From Luteibacter jiangsuensis (GTDB lineage: Bacteria > Pseudomonadota > Gammaproteobacteria > Xanthomonadales > Rhodanobacteraceae), in NCBI RefSeq assembly GCF_030812295.1, contig NZ_JAUSSK010000004.1, positions 186,001 through 250,000 on the forward strand: a stretch of DNA of 64,000 nt, read 5' to 3'. A program made the position numbers and the translations under genes. Within the stretch, counting starts at the first letter, position 1. The number at the start of each line of letters is the position of its first letter. This document shows positions 35,282 to 53,742 of this stretch, one piece after another. The notes under the pieces were generated by a model. It had not been told where the DNA came from. It saw only the letters and a list, made by a program, of their open reading frames with translations, and ran no database searches.

Positions 35282-35309
35282 TGAGTGCGGCGGCGGCTTG
35301 GGAAGGTTG
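35282..35309 (-). promoter_or_regulatory. ECF-type promoter for the kinase-exporter operon
   Basis: Minus strand: CAACCTT at 35309-35303, 13 bases, then CGCACTCA at 35289-35282. Fourteen of the fifteen defining bases match the copies at 50527, 50544 and 53715. It ends 38 bp before the kinase ATG. Back-to-back with the plus-strand copy at 35334. Confidence 0.75.
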
Positions 35310-35333
35310 TCGACGCACGGCGCGGCATCGACG

Positions 35334-35361
35334 CAACCTCGCCCGCATCGGAGGGCACCTA
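35334..35361 (+). promoter_or_regulatory. ECF-type promoter for the radical SAM-nucleotidyltransferase operon
   Basis: CAACCTC at 35334-35340, 13 bases, then GGCACCTA at 35354-35361; twelve of fifteen positions agree with the consensus. It ends 59 bp before the ATG at 35421 and points away from the kinase promoter, with 24 bases between the two -35 elements. The weakest copy but one; placed where a divergent promoter is required. Confidence 0.6.
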
Positions 35362-35420
35362 CGCCCATCGCAGCGGCGCCGGTGCCGCGCTCCCCTGGTC
35401 CAGTCCGAGGCCCCTCACCG

Positions 35421-36893
35421 ATGTTGAAGATCCAGGTAGGCCATTCCTACTTCCTGCGCTACGACAGCAAGCAATGGGAACGTGGCAAGCCCTATCCCCC
35501 CCTGGCGACGATCCACATCGCCGCGTTGCTGCGCCGGATGCGACACGACGTGACGCTGTTCGACTCGATGCTGGCCGATGGCGTGGAAGACTACGCGGCG
35601 GCGTTCGAACGGGTCCGACCCGACCTGGTGGTCTTCTACGAGGACAATTTCAATTTCCTCACCAAGATGTGCCTGGGCCGCATGCGTGACGCGGCCTGCC
35701 GGATGATCGCCGAAGCGCGCGCGAACGGCGCCCGGGTGATCGTGGCCGGCTCCGATGCCTCCGATCATCCGGAGCCCTTCCTCGACGCCGGCGCGGATGC
35801 CGTGCTGATCGGCGAAGGCATCGGCGCGCTGATGGCCCTGGTCGATCGCCTCGAGCGACAACCCGGCATCGATGGCGCGGCGTGGACGGAAGGCCTTCCC
35901 GGCGTGGCCACGATCGCCGAAGGCACGACGCTGATCACCCGCATCGGCGCCGCGCCCCCCGATCCACGCGTCGCCGGGCAGCCGGCATGGGACCTGCTCG
36001 ACATCGAACGGTACCGTGCCTTCTGGCAAGACCGGCATGGCTATTTCAGTCTCAACATGGCGGCGTCACGAGGCTGTCCGTTCCGCTGCAACTGGTGCGC
36101 GAAACCGATATGGGGCAATCACTACAACCAGCGCCCGGCGGAGGAAGTCGCCGCCGAGATGACCTTCCTGAAGCGGACCTTCGCACCGGACCATGTCTGG
36201 ATGGCCGACGATATCTTCGGTTTCCACGTGGACTGGGTGAGCGAGTTCGCCGCCCACCTCGATGCCAGCGACGGCTCGATCCCGTTCACCATCCAGACGC
36301 GCGCCGACCTCGCCAGTGAACGCATGTGCGCCGCGTTGGCGAAAGCCGGTTGCGCGGAAGCATGGATAGGTGCCGAGAGCGGCAGCCAGCACGTGCTCGA
36401 CCGCATGACCAAGGGCACCAAGGTGCCCGACCTCGTCGCCTCCCGGCGACGCCTTGGCGCGCACGGCATCCGCGTTGGCTTCTTCATCCAGCTCGGCTAC
36501 CTGGGCGAACAACTCGACGACCTGCTGGCGACGCGCCAACTGGTGGAACTGGCGGCTCCCGACGACATCGGCGTGAGCGTGTCCTACCCGTTGCCTGGCA
36601 CGAAGTTCTTCGAGGAAGTGAAGGCACAACTCGGCGCCAAGACGCACTGGGACGATAGCGCCGACCTGGCGATGATGTTCCGCGGCGCCTACGATTCAGA
36701 CTTCTATCGCCAGTTCCGTAACCTGCTGCACGACCAGGTGACGCTGCAACAGGGCGTGGCGCCCCCGCAGGCCAAGGCATCCTTGCGCACGCGCTGGAAC
36801 GCCCTGGTCGCGAGCGAGCGGGCGCACCGCACGGAAACACCCACGCTTCCTTCCCCCGTGACGTTGCAAGGCGTCGCCCTTCCTCTCGCATGA
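35421..36893 (+). CDS. B12-binding-type radical SAM protein
   Basis: 490-aa class B radical SAM enzyme. Residues about 1-170 form a cobalamin-binding-like Rossmann domain, although the DxHxxG histidine motif is not seen (FDSMLADG stands there). The [4Fe-4S] motif is SRGCPFRCNWC (Cx3Cx2C) near residue 220, followed by the TIM-barrel segments VWMADDIFGF, QTRADL and WIGAESGSQHVLDRM. Such enzymes methylate or rearrange unactivated carbons. ATG 35421 is chosen as the start of the Rossmann domain; the frame is open to 35298 through the promoter. It precedes the nucleotidyltransferase by 7 bp. Substrate unknown. Confidence 0.85.
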   Translation: MLKIQVGHSYFLRYDSKQWERGKPYPPLATIHIAALLRRMRHDVTLFDSMLADGVEDYAAAFERVRPDLVVFYEDNFNFLTKMCLGRMRDAACRMIAEARANGARVIVAGSDASDHPEPFLDAGADAVLIGEGIGALMALVDRLERQPGIDGAAWTEGLPGVATIAEGTTLITRIGAAPPDPRVAGQPAWDLLDIERYRAFWQDRHGYFSLNMAASRGCPFRCNWCAKPIWGNHYNQRPAEEVAAEMTFLKRTFAPDHVWMADDIFGFHVDWVSEFAAHLDASDGSIPFTIQTRADLASERMCAALAKAGCAEAWIGAESGSQHVLDRMTKGTKVPDLVASRRRLGAHGIRVGFFIQLGYLGEQLDDLLATRQLVELAAPDDIGVSVSYPLPGTKFFEEVKAQLGAKTHWDDSADLAMMFRGAYDSDFYRQFRNLLHDQVTLQQGVAPPQAKASLRTRWNALVASERAHRTETPTLPSPVTLQGVALPLA

Positions 36894-36900
36894 GCACGCC

Positions 36901-38112
36901 ATGTTGCCGCCACTGAAGCTCGTCAAGCACGGTCTGCGCCGAACCACGGAGACGTTGGCGGCCGAACTCGCCCTCGCCCAACCCGGCACCGCGATGCCCG
37001 ACTGGACCGACCTCGAATGGCGGCTCGCGTCGGCCGCCGCTGTCGCCCACGGCGTTTCGCCGCTGCTTTGCCGTTTCTCCACCTGGCAACGGCCTTCGTG
37101 GCGGCGCTTCCTCGTCGACCAGCGCCAGCATGTCATCCAGCGCCACGAGCGGATCGCCACCCTGTTGCGCCGTATCGACGCGGAAGCCCGTGACGCCGGC
37201 TTGCCGATGATCGCCCTGAAGGGTGCCGCGTTGCATGCGCTGGGCTTGTACGCCCCAGGCGATCGGCCGATGGCGGACGTGGATCTCCTCGTGGACGAGG
37301 CCGATGCGGACGCTACGGCCGGCATGCTCGTCGCCATCGGTTACGAGGAATCGTTCGCGCAGTGGAAGCACCGCGTGTTCAAGCCGTCGGCGGGCGATGC
37401 GGTCGCGGGGCTTGGCGAGCATCGCGACACGCCGATCAACATCGAACTGCATACGCGCATCCACGAACGGCTGCCGCTCGACACGGTGGACATCACGTCC
37501 AGTGTCCGTCCGCACGATGCTCGTCCCGGCATCCAACCCTATCCGTCACCCGGCGCGTTGATGGGCCATTTGTTGCTGCACGCCGCGGGCAACATGTGTG
37601 GGCGCAGCCTGCGCCTGCTTCACCTCAACGACATCGCGCTGCTCGCCACGCGCATGCGGCCGGACGACTGGGAGGTGCTTTGGTCCGGCGAGCGTCCCTG
37701 GTGGGCACTGCCACCACTCGAACTCGTCGCGCGCTATTACCGCGACGCCGTGCCCAGGACCGTGCTCAAGCGGCTCCGTCGCGATGGCCCGCTCGTGCTG
37801 CGCATGGTTGCGCGCCGGCAGACACTGACCCACGTCTCCTGCTCCAACCTATGGCTGCACGCCCTTCCCGGTGTCGAATGGTCGCGTTCGATAAACGAAG
37901 CGGCCCGGTGCCTGAAGAACCGGCTCCGGCCCACCGAGGAAAGCGTGAAGGAGCGTGCAGACATGATCCGGACCCAGGTCTGGCTCCAGGATCAGAGCTG
38001 GGTGAGCCTCGGCCATCGGCGCCGCCTCCTGGCCTGGCTCACCCGCCCGATACCGCGCATGGACACGATGTACGTGGTGCGCAAGGCGCTGGATGCCGTC
38101 GTGGCGGGTTGA
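36901..38112 (+). CDS. Nucleotidyltransferase family protein (PF14907-like)
   Basis: 403-aa protein of the NTP_transf_5 type. The core LPMIALKGAALHALGLY ... RPMADVDLLVD (about 100-130) carries the DxD metal-binding aspartates of the nucleotidyltransferase fold, and INIELHTRIHERLP supplies the third acidic position. These proteins accompany HprK-related kinases in glycan and lasso-peptide loci, where NMP transfer is suspected but seldom shown. It forms a two-gene operon with the radical SAM gene, and ends facing the glycan operon with a shared hairpin. Confidence 0.8.
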   Translation: MLPPLKLVKHGLRRTTETLAAELALAQPGTAMPDWTDLEWRLASAAAVAHGVSPLLCRFSTWQRPSWRRFLVDQRQHVIQRHERIATLLRRIDAEARDAGLPMIALKGAALHALGLYAPGDRPMADVDLLVDEADADATAGMLVAIGYEESFAQWKHRVFKPSAGDAVAGLGEHRDTPINIELHTRIHERLPLDTVDITSSVRPHDARPGIQPYPSPGALMGHLLLHAAGNMCGRSLRLLHLNDIALLATRMRPDDWEVLWSGERPWWALPPLELVARYYRDAVPRTVLKRLRRDGPLVLRMVARRQTLTHVSCSNLWLHALPGVEWSRSINEAARCLKNRLRPTEESVKERADMIRTQVWLQDQSWVSLGHRRRLLAWLTRPIPRMDTMYVVRKALDAVVAG

Positions 38113-38122
38113 AGCATCGACG

Positions 38123-38156
38123 GGCCGCCGCTTCCGCCTTCATGGAAGCGACGGCC
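38123..38156. terminator. Bidirectional hairpin between convergent operons
   Basis: GGCCGCCGCTTCC (38123-38135) pairs with GGAAGCGACGGCC (38144-38156), 12 of 13 bp matching, around an 8-base loop. It overlaps the last codons of the minus-strand glycosyltransferase and follows the nucleotidyltransferase stop by 11 bp. No U-tract on either side, so termination efficiency is uncertain. Confidence 0.5.
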
Positions 38157-39246
38157 GTGACGTGCGGTACATGTCCTCGAAGATCACCGCCGTGTGGTCG
38201 GCGTCTTCCGCCAGCGCGCGGCGCTGCGCTTCGCCCGCGAGTCGCATGCGCAGGGCATCGTCGTCCAGCACGCGAGCCATCGCGTCGGCAAGCGCGTTCG
38301 CATCGCCCACCGGCACCGCCAATGCCGCTACGTTGGCCCATTCGGCGATGTGGCCCACGGCCGTACCCACCGTCGGCACGCCCGCCACGGCGGCTTCCAG
38401 AAGGACCAAAGGTCCCGCCTCGTGCAACGACGACATCACCAGCAGGTCGGACGAAGCCACCAGCGGCCGCAACTCCGCCTGCGTGCGAAACCCGAGGAAG
38501 GTGACCCGCCGCTCGATGCCCAGGCAACGCGCGAGTTCCTGCATTTCACCGCCGAGCGTATCCACGCCGACGATGCGCATGTCGAAGTCGACGCCCGCGT
38601 TGGCCAGGATCGCCAATGCACGCAGCAAGGTCGCCTGGTCCTTCACGCGGTTGAGGCTGGCTACATGGATCAGTTTCGGCAGCCGATCGCCGCGCGGCCG
38701 TGGCGGGAGCGGCGTCCAAGCGTCCACATCGACACCCAGGGGCACCCGTGTGGCCGGGACGCCCAACGCGTGCAACGCATCGACGATCGGCATGCTCGCG
38801 GCGGTCACCGCCTTCGCCATGCGCAGGGTCACCGCCTCGCGCAGCCGGCCCCGCCACTTTCGCCTTCCGCCGTAGCCGATAGCATGCAGGGCGACCAGCT
38901 CGCCCCCAGCGATATGCACGAAAACGGGAAGCCGCAGCGATGTCGCCGCCACCACGCCGATCAGGCCACAGTGCCCGGAGAAGATCGACTGGACGACGTC
39001 GAAAGGCGCACGCCGATGTTCGGCGCGAATCGCCGCGATGCCACGCCATACGGTGCGGCCTTCGCCTATGTTGTGGATCGTCGCGCCGCGCAATGACCAG
39101 GTTCCGGCTTCCGACTCCTGGTGCAGCACGAACACGTGCACCTGGTGCGCTCTCGCGAGGCGTTCGATCAGGGCGAGGAACACGGGGATCACCCGCTGTT
39201 CGCCTCCCCGGTCCACACCGCCGGGAAGCACCAGTGCGATCTTCAT
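38140..39246 (-). CDS. Glycosyltransferase, GT4-like
   Basis: 368-aa GT-B fold retaining glycosyltransferase. N-terminal IALVLPGGVDRGGEQRVIP, then the donor half with LIHVASLNRVKDQATLLRAL and the E-x7-E motif region SSLHEAGPLVLLEAAVAGVPTV that binds the nucleotide sugar. Cytoplasmic, probably adding a sugar to an undecaprenyl-linked repeat unit. Last gene of the 12-gene operon; its ATG (39246) overlaps the previous stop by 4 bp. The open frame to 39702 lies inside the neighbouring gene. Confidence 0.88.
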   Translation of the reverse strand: MKIALVLPGGVDRGGEQRVIPVFLALIERLARAHQVHVFVLHQESEAGTWSLRGATIHNIGEGRTVWRGIAAIRAEHRRAPFDVVQSIFSGHCGLIGVVAATSLRLPVFVHIAGGELVALHAIGYGGRRKWRGRLREAVTLRMAKAVTAASMPIVDALHALGVPATRVPLGVDVDAWTPLPPRPRGDRLPKLIHVASLNRVKDQATLLRALAILANAGVDFDMRIVGVDTLGGEMQELARCLGIERRVTFLGFRTQAELRPLVASSDLLVMSSLHEAGPLVLLEAAVAGVPTVGTAVGHIAEWANVAALAVPVGDANALADAMARVLDDDALRMRLAGEAQRRALAEDADHTAVIFEDMYRTSRPSLP

Positions 39247-40376
39247 GCGGCCTTCCTTCCGTCCACCAGTTGGCGGTACGCCTCGGCCCACTGACGGCCC
39301 AGCGCGGCGAACGACAAGGACGCGTCGAAATGGTCGCGCACCTCGTCCCGCGCGATGCCCGATGCCGCGACGTCCGATGCCGCCGCGACGAGAGCCCCGG
39401 CCAGCGCCGTCGCGTCGCCACGCGACCACAGCTTGCCGATGCGCCCGGCGCCCGTGATCGCGCGGAACGACGGAATGTCCGTCACCACCGGACGGAGACC
39501 GCAGGCCATCGCCTCCAACAAGGCGTAGCCCGATCCTTCGGCGAGGCTCGCCGAGACGAAGAAGTCGGCCGCGTGCATGAGGCGCTCGATGTCGGCATGA
39601 GGTACGGCTCCCAGCAAGTGGACGCGTCCAGCGAGACGCGCATCGCCATCGATTCTGCGGCGCACACAGGGCAACAACGGCGCCGTGCCATACGCGCACC
39701 ATAGTTGCAGGCCAGGCAACCGCTCGCTGGCCTTGGCGATGCCGTCGAGCATCGTCAACGGATCCTTTCCCGCGGTCAGGTGTCCGACGGAGAGCACGCA
39801 GGGGTCGCCGCGCAAACCGGTGGCCGCACGCGCGGCATCACGATCGCCCGGCATGAAGCGGCTGCTGCTTTCGGGAATCGCGATCAACCGCGTATGCCTG
39901 CCGAACAAACGCCGCCGCGTGAACGGTTCGGCCTGTTCGAGCGCGGTGAAGACGATGCCCGCCGCCGCGCCATACCATCGCCGCCAGGGCATGTGCCGCC
40001 ATCGCGACGGCAGGCCATTCGCGTGATCCTGCAGGACCACCGGCACGCCGGGAAGACATCGCGTCAGCACCGCGGCGTGTCGCGCGAAAGCAAGGCCGTG
40101 CACGTGCACGACATCCGCGCCGGCCTCGCCGGCGAGACGCGCCGCGCATCTGCCCAGGTCGCCGGCGCCGCGCATGTCGCGGCTATCGATGAAGTGGTAG
40201 TCGATGCCGCGACGCACCACGTGCTGGCTGAAACCCGCCATCTGGACCGCGGTCACCCGCGTGCCCCCGCTGGCGATAGCTTCGGAGATATCGGCCAGCG
40301 AAGGCCATAGATCGAAGATCGCGTCGGCGTCGAGTTCCGCGGGCGCGGCGACGAAGTTGATCAATACGGCGCGCAT
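39243..40376 (-). CDS. Glycosyltransferase, GT4-like
   Basis: 377-aa GT-B glycosyltransferase. DVVHVHGLAFARHAAVL and VVLQDHANG mark the acceptor half; CVLSVGHLTAGKDPLTML and SASLAEGSGYALLEAMACGLRPVV the donor-binding half with its glutamates. Sugar and linkage cannot be read. It sits between the second radical SAM gene (13 bp upstream) and the other GT4 (4-bp overlap), all one transcript. Confidence 0.88.
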   Translation of the reverse strand: MRAVLINFVAAPAELDADAIFDLWPSLADISEAIASGGTRVTAVQMAGFSQHVVRRGIDYHFIDSRDMRGAGDLGRCAARLAGEAGADVVHVHGLAFARHAAVLTRCLPGVPVVLQDHANGLPSRWRHMPWRRWYGAAAGIVFTALEQAEPFTRRRLFGRHTRLIAIPESSSRFMPGDRDAARAATGLRGDPCVLSVGHLTAGKDPLTMLDGIAKASERLPGLQLWCAYGTAPLLPCVRRRIDGDARLAGRVHLLGAVPHADIERLMHAADFFVSASLAEGSGYALLEAMACGLRPVVTDIPSFRAITGAGRIGKLWSRGDATALAGALVAAASDVAASGIARDEVRDHFDASLSFAALGRQWAEAYRQLVDGRKAA

Positions 40377-40389
40377 GCGATCCGCCTGC

Positions 40390-41901
40390 TCAGAGGCCGG
40401 ATACCTGCGGCAGGCGCAGCCGCACCAGCCGGTTGGCGAGATTCAGTTCCCACGGCTTGTCGTATTTCCGCCCGCGATAGCGCCATGACGCCATCGCACT
40501 CAGGCCGCGCTTTGCCCAGGGCGGCGAGCGCAGGTCCTGCACCGTGGGGAAGCGGCAGCGCAGCACCGTGACGAAGTCCTGGATATACCGGCGCAGGTCG
40601 TCCGACAGCCACGGCGCGTCCGCGTGGCAGGCATAGTCGACCCACCGCTTCTGCGTCCATTCCTCCGGCGTCGCCGGAAAGATCACCGGCTCGCCATCCA
40701 GGTCGAGCAGGGGCGCGGAAGCGCGCTTGCCACGATCCTTCTCGTGCTTGCTGCCTTCCGGCAGCGGCGTGTAGATGTAGACGATGATTTCCGATTGCGG
40801 ATTGATCTTCTTCAGTTCGCGGATGAACTCGAAGGTGTGCAAGGTCTCTTCCTCGGTGTTCTGCGGCGGGGCGACCATGAACGAGAGTTCGGGAATCACG
40901 CCATGGCGGCGGCACAGTTCCGCAACCTCCAGGGTCTGGTCGGGCCGCGTGCCCTTGCGGATTTCCTTCAGCATCGCGCCACTGGGGGACTCCGCGCCGA
41001 TATAGGCCATGCGCAGCCGGCTCTTGCGCACCAGCTTCCACGAGCTTTCCGAGAGGTTGAGCAAGGCGTCGGAACGCGCGTAGCACCACCAGGGAAGCTC
41101 CAGCTTCGCCATCACTTCCAGCAGCGGCACCATGTCCTCTTCGCGATCGAAGAAGTTGTGGTCGAAGAACTGGATCGAATCGGCGCCGAGCCCGTGCTTG
41201 AGATAGCTCAGGTCGCGCTCCAGGCGGACCGCGGCGGGCAAGGCCGTCGTGCCGCCGAACATCGCGGCCACGCCACAGAACGTGCAGCGGAAACGGCAAC
41301 CGATCGCGGCCTGATGTGCGGCCGTGCGCCGGCCGAGGAAGGTGGGCGCCAGGTAACGGCGCGGATCGCCCAGCTTGCCGTACGGCAACACGATGCCGCT
41401 GTCGCCGAGCGAGAAGCGGCGGCCGGGGTTGTGCACGACATCGCCGTCGTGCTTCCAGGACAGCCCGCCGATGCGCGAAACATCGCGGTCGGGCCGGCCG
41501 AGCGCGGCCATCAGTTCGGGCAGGCTTTCCTCGCCTTGCCCGCGAATGGCGTAATCCACGTAGGGCGCGGAAAGCGCGGTATCGGTGTAAAGGGTGGGGA
41601 AATAGCCGCCCCACACGATGGGCATGTGGGGGAAGCGCTCGCGGATCGCCTTCGACACGGCGATGGACGGTGCCATCTGTGGGCCACCCATGACACTGAT
41701 GCCGACGGCATCGAAGCGTTCTGTTTCGATCGCGCGCAAGGTCGCGCCGACGACGTCGCGGTCGATGTTGCCATCCACGATCCGGCTCGTGCCCGTGCGG
41801 TCCAGTGCCGCGGCCAGGTGAAGCAGTGAGAGAGGAAAACGGGCGCTACCGCGCGAGGTGATCGTCGGGTTGACCAGCAGGGTGTTCGGGGCGTGGGTCA
41901 T
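40390..41901 (-). CDS. B12-binding-type radical SAM protein
   Basis: 503-aa class B radical SAM enzyme, distinct from the one at 35421. An N-terminal Rossmann cobalamin-type domain (VGISVMGGPQMAPSIAVSKA, IVWGGYFPTLY) lacks the DxHxxG histidine. The cluster-binding motif is IGCRFRCTFC near residue 200, then SIQFFDHNFFD, CYARSDALLNL and AYIGAESPSGAML. The C-terminal 130 residues form an extra domain. Probably tailors a lipid, sugar or peptide of this locus (inference). ATG 41901 opens the Rossmann domain; 19 bp after the methyltransferase. Confidence 0.86.
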   Translation of the reverse strand: MTHAPNTLLVNPTITSRGSARFPLSLLHLAAALDRTGTSRIVDGNIDRDVVGATLRAIETERFDAVGISVMGGPQMAPSIAVSKAIRERFPHMPIVWGGYFPTLYTDTALSAPYVDYAIRGQGEESLPELMAALGRPDRDVSRIGGLSWKHDGDVVHNPGRRFSLGDSGIVLPYGKLGDPRRYLAPTFLGRRTAAHQAAIGCRFRCTFCGVAAMFGGTTALPAAVRLERDLSYLKHGLGADSIQFFDHNFFDREEDMVPLLEVMAKLELPWWCYARSDALLNLSESSWKLVRKSRLRMAYIGAESPSGAMLKEIRKGTRPDQTLEVAELCRRHGVIPELSFMVAPPQNTEEETLHTFEFIRELKKINPQSEIIVYIYTPLPEGSKHEKDRGKRASAPLLDLDGEPVIFPATPEEWTQKRWVDYACHADAPWLSDDLRRYIQDFVTVLRCRFPTVQDLRSPPWAKRGLSAMASWRYRGRKYDKPWELNLANRLVRLRLPQVSGL

Positions 41902-41920
41902 GGAGGCGGGTCGCAAGGAT

Positions 41921-42619
41921 TCAGGAGGGGCGGCGCAGCTGGAATACCAGCGCGACGGGCACGTCGAGGGCCACGCGGTCGAAGTGCGCGCCCCCGGGGA
42001 TGTCCGTGGTATCGAGCATGGGCTCGAGCACATGCTCGATGAGCAGGCCGAGGCGCGAGCAGGCCGCGTGCCAATGGCTGTAGAGGTGCGGGGTATGGCG
42101 CGCCGCATAGCGCTGTCCACCGTATTTGAAGTCGCGCAGCCAGCCCAGCGCGTGGCCGGTGGGATGCACGTCGCTGCAGAGGATCAGGCCTCCGGGACGG
42201 GTCACCCGGCGCAGTTCCGCAAGCGCCGGCTCAAGCCGCCGGAGGTGCCCGATCACCAGGCCACATAGCGTGATGTCGGCCTCGCCCGGAGGCAGCGGCA
42301 ACGACTCCAGATCGCCCTGCCCCAGTTCGATACGGGTGCACGTGGCGGTGTCGGCGAGCGCGGCGGCGGCACGCTCCAGCATCTCCGGCGACAGGTCGAT
42401 CCCGCGCACGCGGGCCGCGCCGCGTTCGACCGCATGGCGCACGTAGCGGCCGCTGCCGCAGCCCGCATCGACCACCGATTGGCCGTGCAGGTCGCTTGGC
42501 AACAAGCCAAGCATCGCGCGCTCCTCGGCAAGCATCACCGGATTGTGCGCGTAGGCAGGGTAACTGTCGGCCCAGAGTGCGTACGCGGCGGCGGGTTCGA
42601 GGATGGGAGTGGTTTTCAT
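41921..42619 (-). CDS. Class I SAM-dependent methyltransferase
   Basis: 232-aa Rossmann-fold methyltransferase. SAM-binding motif I is VVDAGCGSGRYVRHA near residue 51, followed by GIDLSPEMLERA, the GDLESLPLPPGEAD acidic loop and LRRVTRPGGLILCSD. The C-terminal part (HTPHLYSHWHAACSRLGL) resembles O-methyltransferases of UbiE/Bud23 type, but the target is unknown. It overlaps the amidohydrolase stop by 4 bp in the glycan operon. Confidence 0.85.
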   Translation of the reverse strand: MKTTPILEPAAAYALWADSYPAYAHNPVMLAEERAMLGLLPSDLHGQSVVDAGCGSGRYVRHAVERGAARVRGIDLSPEMLERAAAALADTATCTRIELGQGDLESLPLPPGEADITLCGLVIGHLRRLEPALAELRRVTRPGGLILCSDVHPTGHALGWLRDFKYGGQRYAARHTPHLYSHWHAACSRLGLLIEHVLEPMLDTTDIPGGAHFDRVALDVPVALVFQLRRPS

Positions 42620-44670: not shown

Positions 44671-44701
44671 GTCGATCTCCGAACCCATGGTGTGATGTCC
44701 A

Positions 44702-44729
44702 TGTGTGCCGCCTCACGGCACTTTGGTTG
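44702..44729 (-). promoter_or_regulatory. ECF-type promoter inside the glycan operon
   Basis: Minus strand: CAACCAA (44729-44723), 13 bases, GGCACACA (44709-44702). Twelve of fifteen consensus positions match and the gap is again exactly 13. It begins three bases after the wzz stop codon and would boost the distal genes from the methyltransferase to the GT4 genes. Confidence 0.55.
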
Positions 44730-44731
44730 AC

Positions 44732-45574: not shown

Positions 45575-46716
45575 GCGGGGGACTCGGAGGAAGGGTAAGG
45601 GGATGGGCTTCGGTTCGGCAGCAGCGCGGCCAGCAACTGAAGCAGCAGGCAAATACCGAGGAACGCGGCGTTCATCCAGATAAAGATCTGGGGCGCGAAA
45701 GGCGACATGACCGCGACGTATGCGATACGCAGGAACATCAGCAAACCGAAGAGCGGCACGTTCGGGCGCAACCGGCGCACGCACCAGAGCAGGACGCCAT
45801 ACGCCGCCGCGATCGAGAGCAAGGCCCCTGCCGCGCCCCAGGCAAGCAGGAACGGAAGGTATTCGGTGCCCACGTTGATGTTCGCCGCGTCCAGGGGAAT
45901 GTCGGTATCCGCGGTCAGCAAGGGACCGCTGCCCGGCACCAGCTGGTGCACCAGGAAATCCAGGTTCACATAGTGCTTGGCCAGCATCGCGCCGAAGTTG
46001 TAAGGACCCGCGCTGATATAGAGAAGCAGCCACTTGATGCCCTGAGGGGCCGCCTTGTAGAGGTCGCTGAAAGGCAAGGTCACGTTATCCAGCGACCCCG
46101 AGCGAAGGGCGCCCAGCACCGAAAAGACAACGCATCCGAGCAGACCGAGCATGGCGATGGCCTTCCAGGGCAACGGCTTCGTGCCATCGCGGCGAAAGAC
46201 CGTCACGAAAGCGATCGAGAACAAGGCCGCGAAGATGCGGTTGCGATCGATGACGAGGACGGGAAACACCAGTCCCACCGCCACGAGTGCGTAGCGCAAC
46301 CCCGCGTGGCGCGTGCACAACAACCCGATGACGGGCAAGGTCCAGCACATGTCGGAGATATGCCGCAGGTGTTCCCGCCCTGGCTCCATCGTCGCGTACG
46401 AGGACGGATCGTCGATCAACGGTATGGGGAAGAGCGCGAGGTCGAACACGCAGAACAGCACCACCACCGCCGCGAACGCCAGGGCCACGAAGGCCTCACG
46501 GGTACCGGCGTACCGCCGCTCACGAAACTGGGGGGGCGACGGTAGCCGGATGCCCGCGGCGACGTCGAACGCCAGGATGGCCGCCGCCGCGAGCACCAGC
46601 AGAAGGATGCCCTGGCCATAGCCGGCAGGCAGGTCGTACGTCAGCGGGGTGATCCCGCAAGCGAGCAGGAGCGGCAGGCAAAGGTAGGCCGACGGCAGAC
46701 GCAAGAGCCCCTTCAT
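45547..46716 (-). CDS. Wzy-like O-antigen/exopolysaccharide polymerase
   Basis: 389-aa integral membrane protein with about ten helices and a larger periplasmic loop (about 240-290: YVNLDFLVHQLVPGSGPLL). Sequences of this class are too variable for a firm call; the assignment rests on topology, size and its position between a chain-length regulator, a flippase and glycosyltransferases. ATG 46716 overlaps the GT2 stop by 4 bp and begins at the first membrane helix. Would join undecaprenyl-linked repeats in the periplasm. Confidence 0.72.
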   Translation of the reverse strand: MKGLLRLPSAYLCLPLLLACGITPLTYDLPAGYGQGILLLVLAAAAILAFDVAAGIRLPSPPQFRERRYAGTREAFVALAFAAVVVLFCVFDLALFPIPLIDDPSSYATMEPGREHLRHISDMCWTLPVIGLLCTRHAGLRYALVAVGLVFPVLVIDRNRIFAALFSIAFVTVFRRDGTKPLPWKAIAMLGLLGCVVFSVLGALRSGSLDNVTLPFSDLYKAAPQGIKWLLLYISAGPYNFGAMLAKHYVNLDFLVHQLVPGSGPLLTADTDIPLDAANINVGTEYLPFLLAWGAAGALLSIAAAYGVLLWCVRRLRPNVPLFGLLMFLRIAYVAVMSPFAPQIFIWMNAAFLGICLLLQLLAALLPNRSPSPYPSSESPAWNEPTKST

Positions 46717-47654
46717 GTTTCGCCAACCCGACGACGCTGCGGCACGGGACGTATGCGCGACAGCAACAGCAATGACAGATAAGCCATCATCTGTAGCGCG
46801 ACCAGCCACGAGCGCCCCTGCAGGAAGGCGATCTTGGCGCCGATGCGGAACGCCTCGGCGCGAAGCAGGGTGCGGTCGGGCTCGTCGAACATACACAAGC
46901 GGCGCAAGGCCACCTGCCTCGCTTCCGTGAGATTGACGATACGCGTGGCGGTATGGCGAGTCTTGCTGAAGTTCGCGCCATGCAGCCGATAGGCACAGAC
47001 TTTCTCGTCAACGAAGCCGATGGCATCCCTCGCCGCGAGGCGCAGGAACAGGTCCCAATCGTCGATACGCAGACCCTCGGTCCAGCGGGCCACGGTCTCC
47101 AGTGCGCTCTTGCGCAGCATCGTGACCGGGCCGCCGATCGCCCAGTGACTGATCACGGCGCGGCGGATGCCATCATCGGAAAAGTACTGGCGTTTGTTCG
47201 CGTGGTGGAGATCGGACATCCCGCTGTCGAGGATCTTCGCGCCGTGACGGTCCACGACGATGCAGTCTCCGATCGCCGCACCCTTGTGCGGGTGTTCGAT
47301 GAGATAGCGGACCAGGACGTCGGAACCACCGGGCAGCAGGTAATCGTCGCTGGCCCCGATGCGCAGGTACTCGCCGCGCGCGCGAGCCGCCAGTTCGTTC
47401 AACGTGGCCGCGATGCCCTTGTTCTCCCGGCTCACGTATTCCACCGCCATGGCCGCGCCATGGGTCGCCAGCCATGCCTCGATGCGTTCCGCCGTACGGT
47501 CCGTGGATCCATCGTCGATGATGACGATCTCCTTGGCCGGGTAAGGGTCGTCGAGCACGCTGTCCAGGCAACGCTGGACGAAGTCCTCGTGGTTGAACGC
47601 GGGTATGAGCACCGACACGAGCGGCATCGATGCGGGACTCGGTTTGACGGTCAC
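46713..47654 (-). CDS. Glycosyltransferase family 2
   Basis: 313-aa GT-A fold inverting transferase. VSVLIPAFNHEDFVQRCLDS, IVIIDDGSTDRTAERI and the DxD-type metal motif in RIGASDDYLLPGG are typical of GT2; DWDLFLRLA carries the catalytic-base region. A C-terminal hydrophobic helix (ALQMMAYLSLLLLSRI) may anchor it to the membrane. GTG 47654 overlaps the flippase stop by 4 bp. Confidence 0.9.
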   Translation of the reverse strand: MTVKPSPASMPLVSVLIPAFNHEDFVQRCLDSVLDDPYPAKEIVIIDDGSTDRTAERIEAWLATHGAAMAVEYVSRENKGIAATLNELAARARGEYLRIGASDDYLLPGGSDVLVRYLIEHPHKGAAIGDCIVVDRHGAKILDSGMSDLHHANKRQYFSDDGIRRAVISHWAIGGPVTMLRKSALETVARWTEGLRIDDWDLFLRLAARDAIGFVDEKVCAYRLHGANFSKTRHTATRIVNLTEARQVALRRLCMFDEPDRTLLRAEAFRIGAKIAFLQGRSWLVALQMMAYLSLLLLSRIRPVPQRRRVGET

Positions 47655-48910
47655 GGCCGGAGCCCTCCCAGGTAGCGCCGCACCACCACGACGTTGAAGG
47701 CGAGGTAGAGGGCATAGTTGGTGGCGAAGGCGTACATCGCGCCAATCACGCCGAAGGCGGAGGTGAAGGCGCAGACCAGCAGGAAGTACGTCGCGGCGAA
47801 GACGATCTCGGAAACGATGAAAAGTCGGGTCATCGACTTCGCCAGCATCAGGTAGGCGAGGATGAAGGACGCGATCTTGAAGACGTCACCCAGGAGTTGG
47901 GGGGCGTAGAGGTCGTTCGCTCCCGCCGTGAAATCGACGCTGAAAAGCAGGCGCGTGATCGGTTCACGCAAGAGGTAGACCATCGCCGCGATCGCCGCGA
48001 CCGTCGGCAACAAGGTCCGGTAGGCTTGGCGGAACTCCGCGAGCAGCGACGCCTTGTCCTTTGTCGAAGCCAGTTTCGGCAGGTAGTGGATCGTGATCGC
48101 GGTGACCAGGAACAGCAGGTAGGCATCGGATACCCTGCTCACCGCCTGCCAATAGCCCACCTGCTCCCAGCCGAAGCGCTGGGCAAGGTGGTCGCGGACC
48201 GCGATGTTGGCCAGGGGCGGTACCAGTGCCGAGGTCAGCGTCATCGTGGAGAACGTGGCAAGGCGCCCCGTCATCTCCCTGTCGAAACGCATACGCAGCA
48301 TCCCGCGACGGAAGTAAGGACTTCTCCAGCAGGCGGGAAAGGCCACGAGCAGCCACAGGGACTGCCCCAGCACCAGCGCGAGCAAGGCGCCGTAGAGATG
48401 CAGCCAGCGTGACAACCACAGTGCGGCGAGCATCGCCAGGATCGAGCCGGTGACCTGGATGAGCGCGAGCCGCCGCACGTCCATGAACCCGTTGATCACC
48501 GCGAGCATGTAGTTGACGACCGCAATGCCCAGCTGGGCGACGGCGAGCACGCGGACCAGGCTGGCATACCCGGCATCGCCCATGAGCCAGGTCGCGATCT
48601 GCCTGCTGAGCACCAAGGTGCCGGCGCCGATGACGCAGGAAGCGAGCAACGCGTACCAGAGCGCGGCGGCGAGCAGGCGCGAAAGGCGGGCGCTGTCATC
48701 GCGGTACTCGGCGACGTACTTCACCACGCCCGAGCTGATGCCCCCGCCAGCGAACACGGCCAGCACGGACATGAGGCTCATGAACTGGCCGAGCCGGCCG
48801 ACGCCTTCCGGACCGGCGGACGAGGCCACCAGTTTCACCACCACCAGCGCGGCGAGAAGCCGGGCGCCCGTGCCGAGGGCCGCATAGAATCCCGAGCGGA
48901 TGAAGTTCAT
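47651..48910 (-). CDS. Wzx-type lipid-linked oligosaccharide flippase
   Basis: 419-aa MOP-superfamily protein with about twelve membrane helices, similar in segments to the enterobacterial WzxE group ([18 protein letters not shown], and [12 protein letters not shown]). It would turn undecaprenyl-PP-linked repeat units to the periplasmic side for Wzy. ATG 48910 overlaps the aminotransferase stop by 4 bp; longer frames run inside that gene. Confidence 0.88.
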
Positions 48911-50037
48911 GGACCGTCCGCGAACGACATGCATGCCTCGACCACGCACTCGATCTGCTCCTCGCGCAGCGTCGCGGCGATAGGCAGGCTCAACACCTCG
49001 GCGTGGATGCGCTCGGTTAGCGGCAGGCGCCATGCCTGTAGCGAGGCATAGGCCGGTTGCCGGTGCGGCGGGACGGGATAATGCACCTGTGCGTGGATAC
49101 CGTATGCGGCGAGGTGCTCGCGCAGAGCTTGACGGCGCGCGCTGCGCACGACGAACAGGTGCCATACGTGCGCTCCGGGCGCACCGGCCGCGGGAAGATG
49201 GATTTCCGGGTGACGTATCCGGTCGCGGTATGCCTCGGCCACCACGCGACGTCGCGCGTTGTCCGCATCGAGGTGGGACAGCTTCACGCGCAGCATGGCC
49301 GCCTGCATTTCATCCAGACGCGAGTTGGCCCCGAGCCTGTCATGCCGGTACTTCTCCGCCGAGCCGTAGTTGCGCAGGGCGCGGATGTCCGCCGCCAGTT
49401 CGTCGTCGTCCGTGACGACGGCTCCGCCGTCGCCCAGCGCGCCCAGGTTCTTGCCGGGGTAGAAACTGAAAGCGGCCGCGTGGCCTAGCGAGCCGGCCTT
49501 GCGGCCATGCCAGGAGGCGCCATGCGCCTGCGCCGCGTCTTCGATCAGCAGCAATCCACGGCGCCGGGCGATCTCCGCGAGCGCCGTCATGTCGGCGAGG
49601 CGACCGTAAAGATGCACCGCCATGATGGCGCGCGTGCGTGGACCGACGGCCTCCTCGACGCGGGCGGGATCGAGGTTGAACGACGCTTCGTCCGGCTCGA
49701 CGGGGACGGGGATCAACCGGTTCACCGTGACGGCGAGGAAACTGGCGATGAAGGTGTTGGCGGGCACGATGACTTCGTCGCCCTCGACGAGCACCCCACG
49801 GTCCAGGTAGGCGCGCAGGATCAGCGACAGCGCATCGAGGCCGTTGCCGACCCCGATCGTATGCGACACACCGCAATAGCGGGCGAACTCGCACTCGAAG
49901 GCGACCAACTCTTCGCCCAGCACGTACCAGCCCGAGTCGATGACCCGGATGGCCGCCGCCTTGAGTTCGTCGGCGTACGGCGCGTTCACCTCGCCGATAT
50001 CCAGGAAGGGCACGCGCGGCGGAGCGACACTCACCAT
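48907..50037 (-). CDS. Sugar aminotransferase, DegT/DnrJ/EryC1 family (FdtB/QdtB-like)
   Basis: 376-aa PLP-dependent enzyme that aminates keto sugars bound to dTDP. The pocket is clear: [26 protein letters not shown] and the PLP lysine in [16 protein letters not shown]. Position next to a WxcM/FdtA-type ketoisomerase, which shifts the keto group to C3, points to a 3-amino-3,6-dideoxyhexose (Fuc3N or Qui3N). No N-acetyltransferase (FdtC) or rml genes lie nearby, so acetylation and dTDP-keto sugar supply must come from elsewhere. Confidence 0.88.
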
Positions 50038-50459
50038 CCCGCCACCCCTTCCACCCGCTTGCCACCACGGGCCTCGCGCAGGAAATCGTCGTAATCGGTG
50101 ATGTAGTCGTCGGGATCGTAGTGCTGGTCGGCGAGGACCATCAGGACGCAGTCGTCACTGAAATCGTAGAGGTCGCGCCAGACCATCGCGCCCAGCAGGA
50201 GTCCCTTGGTGGGATCGTCGAGCACGACCTCCACCGGGCCGCCACCGTCGTCGAGAAGGAAGGTGACACGGCCCCGCACGGCGATCGCCAGCTGGTTCAG
50301 CCGCCGGTGTGCGTGGCGGCCGCGATGCACGTCCGGCGTGGTGGCGAAAAGGTAGTAAACGCGGCGGATGGGAAAAGGCACGTTCCTCTCCTGCTCCAGC
50401 GCGACGAGCATTCCCCGGCTGTCGCCGTGCGAGGTCAGGGAAATCGGTTGGATGTCCAT
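50031..50459 (-). CDS. dTDP-4-keto-6-deoxyglucose 3,4-ketoisomerase-like protein (FdtA/QdtA, WxcM-like)
   Basis: 142-aa cupin of the WxcM-like/FdtA family. [20 protein letters not shown] opens the fold; the active-site histidines are in [17 protein letters not shown], and [19 protein letters not shown] and [15 protein letters not shown] close it. It isomerises the 4-keto to the 3-keto sugar for the aminotransferase, with which it overlaps by 7 bp. It is the first gene of the 12-gene operon, 41 bp from an ECF-type promoter. FdtA and QdtA cannot be separated by eye. Confidence 0.87.
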
Positions 50460-50499: not shown

Positions 50500-50527
50500 T
50501 GAGTGCCGGTGGCGTCATCGAAGGTTG
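50500..50527 (-). promoter_or_regulatory. ECF-type promoter of the glycan operon
   Basis: Minus strand: CAACCTT (50527-50521), 13 bases, GGCACTCA (50507-50500). All fifteen bases are identical to the plus-strand copy at 50544-50571, which faces the other way; the two -35 elements are 16 bp apart. It ends 41 bp before the fdtA-like ATG and is the only promoter-like sequence for the operon start. Confidence 0.8.
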
Positions 50528-50543
50528 CGTCCCCGCCCCGGTA

Positions 50544-50571
50544 CAACCTTCCTTCGCCTTGTCGGCACTCA
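50544..50571 (+). promoter_or_regulatory. ECF-type promoter of the b561-cytochrome operon
   Basis: CAACCTT (50544-50550), 13 bases, GGCACTCA (50564-50571), ending 28 bp before the cytochrome b561 ATG. Mirror image of the glycan-operon promoter. The same sequence precedes the ECF sigma gene 3.2 kb downstream. Confidence 0.8.
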
Positions 50572-50599
50572 AGCGGAACACGAGGATGGATGGGGCACG

Positions 50600-51151
50600 A
50601 TGGCGGGCAACGACGACGCGGCACCGACGCGACCACGGAAGCTGGTGGCACTGCACTGGCTGACCGTCGTATGCGTGTGCGTGGCAGCGACGCTGATCCT
50701 GCTACGCGACGAGCTCGACGGACGGGCCTTGCGCCAATGGCTGCTCGAAGGACACCGCCACGCCGGCCTGCTGGTCTTGCTGCTCTTCGCCGTGCGCGTG
50801 GCCTTGCGCATCCACTACGGCAAGCTGCCACCCGGCGGCGACCATTCGCGGCTCGTCCGCGTGCTCGCGGGGCTCACGCATGTCGCGCTCTATGCTTTGT
50901 TGCTCGCCCTGCCTCTGCTCGGCTGGGCCATGTCGAGCGCCGCGGGTATGCCCGTCCACTTCTTCGGCCTCACCCTGCCCGCCCTTATCGGTGAAGACGA
51001 GGATCTGGCGGACACGCTGCAGTCGTTGCACGTGGATGCCGCATGGGCCCTGCTCGCGCTGGTCACGCTGCACCTCGCCGCGGCGCTGTGGCACCACTTC
51101 GTGCTGCGCGACCACACCCTCCGAATGATGCTCCCGGGCCGCCGCCGCTGA
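50600..51151 (+). CDS. Cytochrome b561-family diheme membrane protein
   Basis: 183-aa inner-membrane protein with four helices that passes electrons between the quinone pool or periplasm and small donors. The heme-ligand histidines fit the bacterial b561 pattern: VALHWL in helix 1, EGHRHAGLL in helix 2, and TLHLAAALWHH in helix 4, with LTHVALYAL in helix 3. ATG 50600 is chosen; the open frame upstream crosses the promoter. It begins an operon with an outer-membrane cytochrome and a soluble cytochrome c, suggesting it links them to the respiratory chain. Confidence 0.85.
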   Translation: MAGNDDAAPTRPRKLVALHWLTVVCVCVAATLILLRDELDGRALRQWLLEGHRHAGLLVLLLFAVRVALRIHYGKLPPGGDHSRLVRVLAGLTHVALYALLLALPLLGWAMSSAAGMPVHFFGLTLPALIGEDEDLADTLQSLHVDAAWALLALVTLHLAAALWHHFVLRDHTLRMMLPGRRR

Positions 51152-51207
51152 TGGGCGGCGGCCGCTTTACCGTTGCCACCGATCGACAAAGGAAGAAGGA
51201 ACCCGCC

Positions 51208-52530
51208 ATGTTGCCGATATCGCACCGACGACACATCCTCCGCGCCGCGCTCGCCACGCTCCTGCTGCTCCTGGGCAGCACCGCGGCACACGCGATCCCC
51301 GCCTACGCGAGGCAGACGGGTGCGTCCTGCGCGGACTGCCACGCGGGTTCCTACGGTCCCGCGCTCACACCCTACGGCATGCGCTTCAAGCTCAACGGCT
51401 ACACCGATACGGACGGCAAGGGCCACAAGATTCCGCTGTCGATGCAGTTGATCGAAAGCCATTCCGCGCCGGCACGCGGCGACAGCAGCACGCAACTCAG
51501 CGAAGGGGACCTGTACCTGGCGGGACGGCTCACCGACCAGGTCGGCGGCTACGTGAAGATCGAAGCCGACCATACGGGCCACAACACCTACAACCCCCGG
51601 CTCAGCAACGTCGACCTGCGTTTCGTCGCCAAGGACCTGAAGGTCCATGGCAAGGACGCGCTGCTCGGCGTGAGCGTCAACAACAGCCCCGGTTTCAATG
51701 ATCCGATCGGCGCGCTGCCGTCGTTCTCGAACCTGGGGCCCTCCGGCGTCACCGGCACCTTGCTCAATCCTTCCAGTCCCAATTCGCTCGCCAACCGCGT
51801 TATCGGCGCCAGCGTGTACGGCCTCTACGATTCGAACTGGTATGGCGAACTGGGCACCTACCGCGCCTTGCCGACCTCCCAGCAGGACCGCCTCGGCTAC
51901 AACGTGGCCGGCGATCCCGGGCGGCTGAGCGACACGGGCTATTTTCGCCTTGCCTATATGAAGGATATGAAGCGGCAGTTCTTCTCCGCCGGCGTGGTCG
52001 GCCTGACGACGAAACGCCAGTTGCCCCGTTCCGGGCCGAGCGACGACCTCACCGACCTCGGTTACGACCTGACCTACCAGTACCTGGGAAACCGCGAGCA
52101 CATCGTCCAGGTGGCCTACGTGAACATCCTCGAACGGCGCGACTACGGCAGCGCGCCGGTGATCGGCGGCGTGCAGGCGCGCGACCACGGCAACGTGCAC
52201 GACCAGACCGCGAGCGTCACGTACACGTTCAAACAAAGCTACGGTCTATCCGTCAGCCACATGAAGAGCACCGGCTCGAACGACGTGGCGCGCTACGGGC
52301 CCTCGGGCAGTCCCGACACCACCAGCAACGTGCTGACCGTGTTCTGGACCCCCTTTGGCAGGGACGACTCGTATACCTCCATCGCCAACCTGAAACTGGC
52401 CGCCAACTGGTTCCGCTTCACCCGCTTCAATGGCAGGGGCGACGACATCTTCTTCGCCCCGCCGGGAGCCCGTCCGACCAATGCGGGAGACCTGAACGCA
52501 TTCTTCGTGACGGCCAGCCTCGCCTTCTAA
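51208..52530 (+). CDS. Cyc2-like monoheme outer-membrane cytochrome fused to a porin barrel
   Basis: 440-aa exported protein: a signal peptide (ILRAALATLLLLLGSTAAHA), one c-type heme motif CADCH (C41-C44-H45) within PAYARQTGASCADCHAG, then about 380 residues of alternating amphipathic strands ending in ...VTASLAF with a C-terminal phenylalanine, the signal of outer-membrane barrels. A single N-terminal heme plugged into a porin is the layout of Cyc2, the outer-membrane iron oxidase of acidophilic and neutrophilic iron oxidisers. Fe(II) oxidation is not shown; other extracellular donors are possible. A GGAAGAAGGA ribosome site precedes ATG 51208. Confidence 0.75.
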   Translation: MLPISHRRHILRAALATLLLLLGSTAAHAIPAYARQTGASCADCHAGSYGPALTPYGMRFKLNGYTDTDGKGHKIPLSMQLIESHSAPARGDSSTQLSEGDLYLAGRLTDQVGGYVKIEADHTGHNTYNPRLSNVDLRFVAKDLKVHGKDALLGVSVNNSPGFNDPIGALPSFSNLGPSGVTGTLLNPSSPNSLANRVIGASVYGLYDSNWYGELGTYRALPTSQQDRLGYNVAGDPGRLSDTGYFRLAYMKDMKRQFFSAGVVGLTTKRQLPRSGPSDDLTDLGYDLTYQYLGNREHIVQVAYVNILERRDYGSAPVIGGVQARDHGNVHDQTASVTYTFKQSYGLSVSHMKSTGSNDVARYGPSGSPDTTSNVLTVFWTPFGRDDSYTSIANLKLAANWFRFTRFNGRGDDIFFAPPGARPTNAGDLNAFFVTASLAF

Positions 52531-52549
52531 CCCTCTCAGGAGTGACCGC

Positions 52550-52948
52550 GTGTTGAACCCGATCGTGCGACAAACCCTTCGCCTCGCCGCCATGGCCCTG
52601 CTCGCCGGTGGCTGGGCTCTGGCATCGCCCGTCCGCGCCGGCGACGCCAAGGCCGGTGCCGACGTTTTCAAATCCGAATGCGCCGAATGCCATGCGGTGA
52701 AGGAAGGGCGCAACAAGAAAGGACCCAGCCTGTTCGGTATCGTCGGCCGCAAGGCGGGAAGTGTGACCGACTATGAGTATTCCGATGCGTTGAAGCAAAG
52801 CCCGTGGACATGGACGCCCCAACAGTTGCATACGTATCTTTCGCAACCTGCGAAGATCGCCAACCCGGGCACCAAGATGAAATACGACGGCCTCACCGAC
52901 GCCAAGCAACTGGACGACCTCATCTCCTACCTCGACACCCTCCACTGA
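52550..52948 (+). CDS. Soluble class I cytochrome c
   Basis: 132-aa periplasmic cytochrome of the c2/c550 type. A signal peptide (RLAAMALLAGGWALASPVRA) is followed by heme motif CAECH (C44-C47-H48), KKGPSLFGIVGRKAG, and the distal methionine in GTKMKYDGL. GTG start behind AGGAG. It lies 19 bp after the outer-membrane cytochrome and is the natural periplasmic electron carrier between it and an oxidase or the b561 protein. Confidence 0.92.
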   Translation: MLNPIVRQTLRLAAMALLAGGWALASPVRAGDAKAGADVFKSECAECHAVKEGRNKKGPSLFGIVGRKAGSVTDYEYSDALKQSPWTWTPQQLHTYLSQPAKIANPGTKMKYDGLTDAKQLDDLISYLDTLH

Positions 52949-52963
52949 GGCGAAACCCAGCCG

Positions 52964-53701
52964 ATGCTGGAGCACCGTTCCTCGCACGCCCGGTCCCGAT
53001 ATCGCGTCGGGGCGATCTGGATGCTCGTCGCGGCGGGAGCGGTGGCGCCCGTGCAGGCGCAGTCGCAGGCATGGAGCGGCGTGGTGGCGCTCGGCTCGCA
53101 ACTGGTCGATCGCGGCGTGGCCATCACGCCACCCGGTCCCATCCTCCAGGGCGCGGGCACCTGGTCCCTCCCGGATGGCTGGTCCGTCGGCGCTTCGGCG
53201 AGCGCGCAGCTGCGCACGCCCCGACGTATCGTGGAGACCCTCGCCCAGGTGGCGCGTTCGTGGACGCTATCCGGCGACTGGCAGATGCAGTCGAACCTTC
53301 TCTACTACCACTATCCCCGCCACGGCCAGGCGCGCACCTACGGCCGCATGGAACTCGGGGTGGGATGGATCTATCGCGACGTGCTCACGTTCAACGTGTC
53401 GGCGGCGCACATGAACGACTACGGCGGGCAACGCCCCCGCGGCGCGGCCGACCTGGGCCTGCGCTGGCCGCTGGCCCGGCAACTCGCCGTCACGGCCAGC
53501 GCGGGCGTGGCGCAGGAATTGATTCCGCCACGCGGGAGCGACTACGACCGGAGGAACCACTACTACTATGGCCACCTGGGCCTGACCTGGAACGAGGGCC
53601 CATGGCGGGTCGACCTGGCCCACATCATGAGCAACCGCGACAAGCTCGGCTTCCAGCCGGATGTCTCACCCTGGGTTGCGACGGTGTCGTGGGCCTTCTG
53701 A
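52964..53701 (+). CDS. Outer-membrane beta-barrel protein, Gcw_chp/TorF-like
   Basis: 245-aa exported protein with a signal peptide (about 1-32, ending VAPVQAQ) and strand-rich mature part ending TVSWAF, with aromatic C-terminus. The opening VVALGSQLVDRGVAI...LQGAGTWSLPDGWSVG recalls the Gcw_chp putative-porin family (GxxxSQ pattern). Role unknown; it may be an accessory barrel for the cytochromes. Fourteen bp after the cytochrome c gene. Its stop lies just before the sigma-factor promoter. Confidence 0.7.
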   Translation: MLEHRSSHARSRYRVGAIWMLVAAGAVAPVQAQSQAWSGVVALGSQLVDRGVAITPPGPILQGAGTWSLPDGWSVGASASAQLRTPRRIVETLAQVARSWTLSGDWQMQSNLLYYHYPRHGQARTYGRMELGVGWIYRDVLTFNVSAAHMNDYGGQRPRGAADLGLRWPLARQLAVTASAGVAQELIPPRGSDYDRRNHYYYGHLGLTWNEGPWRVDLAHIMSNRDKLGFQPDVSPWVATVSWAF

Positions 53702-53714
53702 AAGGTAGCCGGCG

Positions 53715-53742
53715 CAACCTTTCGGGCCCACCCCGGTACTCA
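53715..53742 (+). promoter_or_regulatory. Autoregulatory ECF-type promoter of the sigma operon
   Basis: CAACCTT (53715-53721), 13 bases, GGTACTCA (53735-53742): one base differs from the copies at 50500-50571. ECF sigma factors commonly transcribe their own operon, so this copy is the strongest argument that the signature belongs to the sigma factor encoded 30 bp downstream. Confidence 0.8.

Follow-up and report, generated by a model that had tools for sequence, protein, structure and literature searches.

The DNA analysed here, a 64,000-nt stretch of Luteibacter jiangsuensis (hereafter the window, in whose numbering coordinates are given), contains six copies of the two-box motif CAACCTT-N13-GGYACTCA, one of them upstream of a gene for an extracytoplasmic function (ECF) sigma factor, raising the question of whether this sigma factor reads all six as promoters and what it would thereby control. 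An initial annotation had proposed an autoregulated ECF regulon joining five units, namely an HprK-related kinase and ABC exporter, a radical SAM protein and nucleotidyltransferase, a glycan operon, a cytochrome operon, and the operon of the sigma factor, its anti-sigma factor and a subtilase. Our comparison with relatives supports this proposal: the leaders of the same genes carry the motif, and its presence tracks the sigma gene or a near homologue, in 37 of 37 motif-bearing genomes of the family and 33 of 35 of the order. We put the probability that the six sites and their cognate ECF sigma factor form a promoter set and regulon at about 0.86.

Within the window, all six sequences were found as the annotation had given them, in position and strand, each with 13 bases between the boxes (Table 1). 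As it had also claimed, all lie in gaps and point at a start codon on the same strand, 13–59 bases downstream, where start codons were taken from heuristic gene calls and homology. The last site does precede the sigma gene, but homology puts the probable start of this gene at 53772; the ATG at 53742 overlaps with the motif. With up to three mismatches the window contains seven matches, as compared with a mean of 1.21 and a maximum of 4 in 100 shuffles; the seventh (7532–7559, minus strand) is located within a gene. The consensus takes the form gCAACCTTt-N11-cgGCACtcA. The sites at 35334–35361 and 44702–44729 have three mismatches each and are too weak to stand alone; both are recovered by a matrix built from relatives. 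This matrix was trained on 162 distinct sites, all from relatives outside Luteibacter and chosen by likeness to the motif core before orthologous genes, and is thus independent of the bases of the window, though not of the idea of the motif. In a scan with this matrix, the six sites rank first to sixth among all window positions with 28.1, 25.5, 23.7, 23.3, 22.2 and 17.4 bits, followed by a seventh position at 12.1, and 20 random Markov windows together yield a single position reaching the score of the sixth site. The exact motif occurs four times in the 4.3 Mb genome of the strain and the reversed pattern not at all. A sequence model, R1, built without hand weighting from 67 of 81 picked sites, recovers four of the sites in the window (E 0.0009 to 0.03); genome-wide, with 150 of 3120 candidates scored, its five matches at E ≤ 10 are these four and one at C1:389488, with E values of 0.06 to 2.0, none significant alone.

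The comparison of leaders draws on two sets of loci. From a genome collection we took 68 ECF loci and counted 67, dropping L079, which holds a 33% identical ECF relative and is without the motif; 28 of the 67 are closely related Xanthomonas loci, and rows are unweighted. The upstream half was followed in 23 hand-chosen loci from genomes with the ECF (L125–L127 were looked at and left out of the counts). The motif was sought within 300 bases upstream of each gene, and leaders were skipped if the homology did not extend fully to the start or if the locus ended within them, so that n differs per gene. At ≤2 mismatches, 63 of 67 sigma leaders and 62 of 65 FdtA leaders carry the site; the remaining target leaders are listed in Table 1, except those of the exporter gene, of which 4 of 13 carry it. 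By comparison, genes not expected to carry a promoter have the site in 1 of 635 leaders, and this one (L030) is a locus in which no b561 was detected and the site is followed by the Cyc2-like gene; some genomes are in both locus sets, and a few of these control leaders (GT2, Wzx, hyp389) are possibly counted twice. The initial annotation had held that a motif no commoner in leaders than in coding or shuffled sequence would speak against its proposal, and the leaders of target and other genes differ in the opposite sense.

The geometry of the motif is likewise constant. The spacing is 13 in all 200 sites at ≤2 mismatches, and a search of spacings 10–16 returned nothing else apart from three FdtA leaders that score at 14 instead. 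No leader has the reversed pattern at ≤2 mismatches, and in leaders without a divergent partner no match was found on the opposite strand (sigma 0/67, methyltransferase 0/18, exporter 0/13). In sigma and FdtA leaders the motif stands 11–47 bases ahead of the start. Departures from the consensus are often kept in relatives, such as CAACCAAA before the methyltransferase gene and, in front of the radical SAM gene, CAACC with C or G as the usual next base, and look as if promoter strengths had been tuned.

The distribution of the motif was then compared with that of the sigma factor in 117 genomes of the family, 250 of the order (with a slightly looser pattern) and 273 other genomes forming a class sample. 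In the family, the exact motif is present in 37 of 117 genomes, 32 with a close ECF (E ≤ 1.5e-93) and five with a 45–49% identical homologue; all 37 thus have an ECF homologue at E ≤ 1e-53 (Fisher 2.7e-14, shared ancestry ignored). The exact motif is absent from all 56 genomes that have no ECF homologue at E ≤ 1e-44, and the reversed motif from all 117. In the order, 33 of the 35 motif genomes encode the ECF at E ≤ 1e-40 (Fisher 2.4e-29, again ignoring shared ancestry), the other two having one motif copy each, and the reversed pattern occurs in one genome. In the class sample the motif is found in three genomes, one copy each, and the reversed pattern in two. We inspected eight ECFs of 43–50% identity, five of them picked for a known exact motif; the three others likewise have sites upstream of their own gene, with 1, 1 and 2 mismatches. 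In addition, the glycan marker (radical SAM 2, E ≤ 1e-150) is found in 43 of the 117 family genomes, and these are exactly the ones that have the close ECF. An ECF autoregulon is well supported by this comparison, and autoregulation of the sigma gene is a fair inference because that gene carries a site in 63 of 67 loci.

A number of observations weigh against a regulon of this extent. At ≤2 mismatches the site is missing from 4/67 sigma, 3/65 FdtA, 21/54 b561, 3/16 kinase, 4/18 radical SAM, 7/18 methyltransferase and 9/13 exporter leaders. In the strain's own genome the motif shows no excess at ≤2 mismatches (11 versus 12 for the control), so that only sites with 0–1 mismatch stand out, and the form GCAACC-N16-GYACNNA shows no clear one (8 versus 6); the exact copy outside the window, at C1:389488-389515, runs antisense to an epimerase gene, with no obvious target. 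R1 misses the two three-mismatch sites. Among the 61 genomes of the family whose ECF homologue reaches E ≤ 1e-44, 24 lack the exact motif, including 11 of 43 with a close one; in the order, 11 of 44 ECF genomes lack it. As to content, 7 of 78 loci contain neither a conduit gene nor a cupredoxin gene, at least one of them being cut by a contig end, and 29 of the 43 close-ECF genomes of the family contain the Cyc2-like protein, once as a 41% match on another contig, so the link between glycan and conduit is not universal.

These points bear unequally on the other ways in which the motif could be read. By themselves, conservation and co-inheritance would fit a promoter no better than an operator to which another regulator binds and which happens to be inherited along with the ECF gene; the two boxes at one fixed spacing, aimed at the gene and close to its start in sigma and FdtA leaders, make the operator improbable, as does the presence of the motif before the sigma gene itself, even for the 43–50% identical homologues where the glycan marker was not found. 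Still less probable is that another sigma factor, such as a different ECF, reads the motif while this ECF reads something else: family genomes do hold several ECF-like candidates (5 to 35 at first look, among the matches listed), and the two order genomes with the motif and without this ECF would suit such a reader, but the strict association within the family, with and without the ECF homologue, argues against it. A chance or base-composition artefact of GC-rich leaders might be suspected from the two three-mismatch sites and from genome-wide counts equal to the control; it is contradicted by the relatives, by the ranking of the six sites with a matrix from other genera, by the random windows and by the reversed pattern, and can practically be set aside. 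We infer that the motif is read by the sigma factor encoded at 53772–54356 rather than by another protein.

Table 1. Candidate promoters and genes of the proposed ECF regulon in the window; fractions are relatives whose leader has the site.
Feature	Coordinates	Strand	Basis
ECF-type promoter, HprK-related kinase / ABC exporter unit	35282..35309	-	1 mismatch; ≤2 mismatches in 13/16
ECF-type promoter (weak -35), radical SAM / nucleotidyltransferase unit	35334..35361	+	3 mismatches; matrix rank 6; ≤2 in 14/18, ≤3 in 18/18
Internal ECF-type promoter, CAACCAAA variant, before methyltransferase within glycan cluster	44702..44729	-	3 mismatches; matrix rank 5; ≤2 in 11/18, ≤3 in 14/18
ECF-type promoter, FdtA and glycan operon	50500..50527	-	exact; ≤2 in 62/65
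ECF-type promoter, b561 / Cyc2-like / cytochrome c operon	50544..50571	+	exact; ≤2 in 33/54, ≤3 in 54/54
Autoregulatory ECF-type promoter before sigma gene	53715..53742	+	exact to GGYACTCA form; ≤2 in 63/67
ABC exporter and HprK-related kinase	32491..35243	-	kinase matches below curated cut-offs
B12-binding radical SAM protein and NTP_transf_5 nucleotidyltransferase	35421..38112	+	Pfam
Glycan cluster: FdtA, DegT, Wzx, GT2, unknown, Wzz-like, methyltransferases, amidohydrolase, radical SAM, two GT4	38140..50459	-	Pfam, NCBIfam
Cytochrome b561	50600..51151	+	PF01292 2.4e-26
Cyc2-like fused cytochrome-porin (predicted)	51208..52530	+	AIPAYARQT, CADCH, PAL
Monoheme cytochrome c	52550..52948	+	PF00034 2.5e-10
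gcw_chp / TorF-like putative porin	52964..53701	+	TIGR02001 5.3e-10, 39.3 bits, below NCBIfam cut-off 47.15
ECF sigma factor	53772..54356	+	start from homology (ORF opens 53742); Pfam Sigma70_r2 and r4
Anti-sigma factor	54353..55006	+	HX3CX2C zinc motif; a single membrane helix apparent by eye; periplasmic domain resembling a prodomain
Subtilase (S8)	55003..56307	+	Pfam Peptidase_S8 1.5e-35; lipobox-like LAAC; catalytic motifs

What the regulon would produce can be judged from the genes behind the sites. The glycan cluster, with a DegT aminotransferase, three glycosyltransferases, a WzxE-like flippase (below cut-off) and a B12-type radical SAM protein, probably makes a surface glycan or glycolipid, together with the kinase, the exporter, a second radical SAM protein and the nucleotidyltransferase, which belong to separate units. 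Two oddities were seen among its orthologues in relatives: a radical SAM 2 gene with one in-frame TAG (G090:C43:168439-169950) and a DegT gene matched in three separate pieces and possibly broken (L064:1855-2950).

The cytochrome operon resembles an electron conduit through the outer membrane of the kind built on Cyc2, whose hallmarks include a 16-strand outer-membrane barrel, and may transport electrons, an aspect that goes beyond the initial annotation. Its Cyc2-like protein has 440 residues, an apparent signal sequence and a single CXXCH, and returned no match among PDB sequences at E ≤ 1. As outlined in PMC8406198, Cyc2 is a fused cytochrome–porin with the signature AXPXFAR[QK][TY], CXXCH and PXL; the window homologue has the second and third of these and departs from the first by Y for F, and the relaxed motif ([FY]) is found in 46 of 55 orthologues. 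Cyc2 homologues are reported in Rhodanobacteraceae by PMC10654088. Among 78 loci the Cyc2-like gene is present in 57, a decaheme cytochrome with an MtrB-like porin beside the ECF system in 8, and a decaheme alone in 3 more, each within about 250 bases of a locus end; both conduits together were found in none of the 78. These decaheme–porin pairs, counterparts of MtrAB, MtoAB and PioAB, lie beside the ECF–subtilase operon in relatives and not in the window. In L033 such a conduit stands downstream of an ECF-type site of the kind found elsewhere before b561. The decahemes of L033 and L111 have ten CXXCH; the L033 porin matches PF11854 at 4.7e-70, and the L111 porin was found by tblastn with that of L033 (35% identity). 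The relatives' decaheme matches 6r2q chain A at 8.9e-66 and the porin matches chain B at 3.6e-9, a structure that we take to be an Mtr complex, though its chain label says otherwise. At loci with a distant ECF, a decaheme follows the subtilase in 6 of 8, and where there is a cupredoxin gene a second site precedes it in 5 of 6. A separate observation concerns L031 (3617–9184): its decaheme/MtrB operon has the opposite orientation to those of L033, L039 and L043, so that no site precedes the conduit and a weak plus-strand motif is left with no operon.

How the sigma factor might be activated is suggested by the two genes behind it. The sigma protein of about 200 residues has regions 2 and 4 only (PF04542, PF08281/PF04545 and PF07638), with no further sigma domain reported, and its PDB relatives include sigma-H and sigma-E factors. 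The adjoining anti-sigma gene qualifies as encoding a zinc-containing anti-sigma (ZAS) protein by this position and by H37-C41-C44, invariant in 28 of 28 aligned sequences. At a permissive E ≤ 5, zf-HC2 is detected in 27 of 28 homologues; the window protein scores 20.8 against a Pfam gathering score of 22.2. A PDB profile search matched the zinc domain to RsiW (E 0.0072); the same search gave no match for the periplasmic domain and none that is meaningful for the N-domain of the subtilase. The subtilase D, H and S catalytic motifs are present in 21 of 21 aligned sequences, and a lipobox-like match in 12 of 21 and in none of six distant ones. Also beyond the initial annotation, the anti-sigma periplasmic domain aligns with the N-domain of the co-encoded subtilase (hhalign 63%, E 6.9e-5, 54 columns), at a score reached by none of 100 column shuffles, for column ranges picked by eye after the likeness had been noticed; other subtilase segments give ≤1%. 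Clade-by-clade comparisons are weaker (1.8–49%), with registers not all alike, and Fervidolysin_NPro-like Pfam matches are marginal: 3 of 28 anti-sigma proteins have one (best 0.027), as do 2 of the 12 N-domains of subtilases (best 0.056), the window's own proteins having none. The likeness to a subtilase prodomain weakly suggests a protease-controlled activation.

The anti-sigma factor of the neighbouring gene would keep the sigma factor at the inner membrane until it is itself inactivated, possibly by the subtilase, which would dock on the prodomain-like domain and cleave the anti-sigma factor. Once freed, the sigma factor would transcribe its own operon of sigma factor, anti-sigma factor and subtilase, together with the glycan cluster, from several promoters, and the outer-membrane electron conduit (b561, Cyc2-like cytochrome-porin and cytochrome c). 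The docking and cleavage by the subtilase are the least certain step, and we propose them tentatively. ZAS proteins of the RsrA/ChrR kind sense redox through the zinc site without cleavage, and the subtilase could then be only an output of the regulon. The HX3CX2C motif is consistent with such a sensor, as are weak below-cut-off matches to anti-sigma models, one of them RsrA, and putative redox targets, namely the cytochromes in the window and, among relatives, genes for cupredoxin, peroxiredoxin and flavin reductase. An apparent membrane helix and a conserved periplasmic domain would, however, be needless for a cytoplasmic redox switch, and the alignment of that domain with the subtilase exceeds its shuffled controls; redox sensing without cleavage is nonetheless a serious possibility, somewhat short of an even chance.

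Sites elsewhere in relatives suggest a wider regulon. Besides the strain's own C1:389488, we inspected 12 distal sites, seven exact (L100, L101, L102, L103, L104, L105 and L107) and five from the looser pattern (L120–L124); L106 proved to be the FdtA site. Five of them precede one small SAM methyltransferase gene (L100, L102, L103, L105 and L107), two a peroxiredoxin-like gene (L104 and L120) and one an acyltransferase gene (L123), and L101 is antisense. In L107 the genes after the small methyltransferase are a flavin-reductase-like one, folE2 and a peroxiredoxin-like one, and L092 and L094 have further sites left of the exporter. The folE2 gene of the window (56322–57239) lies directly after the subtilase gene and, recurring beside the distal site in L107, may belong to the regulon.

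Two features of the window stand apart from this system. The start of a molybdopterin oxidoreductase gene (57400–58100), presumably formate-dehydrogenase-like, contains a SECIS_3 element (57988–58046) and, at codon 198, a TGA in frame, and its product is probably a selenoprotein. An RNase P RNA of class A is encoded at 14232–14598 on the minus strand.

Taken at its widest, the comparison would make one ECF a lineage-wide switch for extracellular electron transfer and surface glycan, with two unrelated conduits, Cyc2-like or MtrAB-like, under its control and a subtilase that throws the switch through a copy of its prodomain on the anti-sigma factor, a bacterial parallel to the subtilisin-type site-1 protease of animals; we regard this full version as speculative and unlikely to hold in every part. 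The regulon proposed here provides a conserved gene set and a promoter sequence for bacteria with Cyc2-like and Mtr-like proteins, leads one to expect that glycan production is turned on jointly with the export or uptake of electrons, with the switch named, and comes with a concrete proposal for a subtilase starting anti-sigma proteolysis. The initial annotation knew of no described ECF regulon of such content, and in the open literature, searched by title and abstract start with most subscription papers outside its scope, we likewise found no description of such a regulon, its promoter or the prodomain-like anti-sigma domain.

ECF sigma factors, ZAS anti-sigma factors and proteolytic activation are each of known kinds. 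AlgU/MucA of Pseudomonas and sigma-E/RseA of Escherichia coli also combine an ECF with a single-pass membrane anti-sigma factor under regulated proteolysis, and AlgU has a polysaccharide output; they differ from the Luteibacter system in that DegS or AlgW, not a subtilase, makes the first cut, no electron conduit is included and the promoter is another one. EcfK/PknS of Xanthomonas citri (ECF43), an ECF regulator from the same bacterial order, is kinase-activated and tied to a type VI secretion system, as summarized in PMC8999054. The RpoE–ChrR type of Rhodobacter sphaeroides, with PSPTO_1043/1042 of Pseudomonas syringae, shares an ECF beside its anti-sigma gene, probable autoregulation, a two-box promoter of fixed spacing and oxidative-stress targets, according to PMC5507510. 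Its promoter there is TGATCC-N16-CGTA, whereas that of Luteibacter is CAACCTT-N13-GGCACTCA, and, set against the type as outlined in that report, the Luteibacter system differs by an anti-sigma factor that is apparently bound to the membrane and by its subtilase, its glycan cluster and the outer-membrane conduits.

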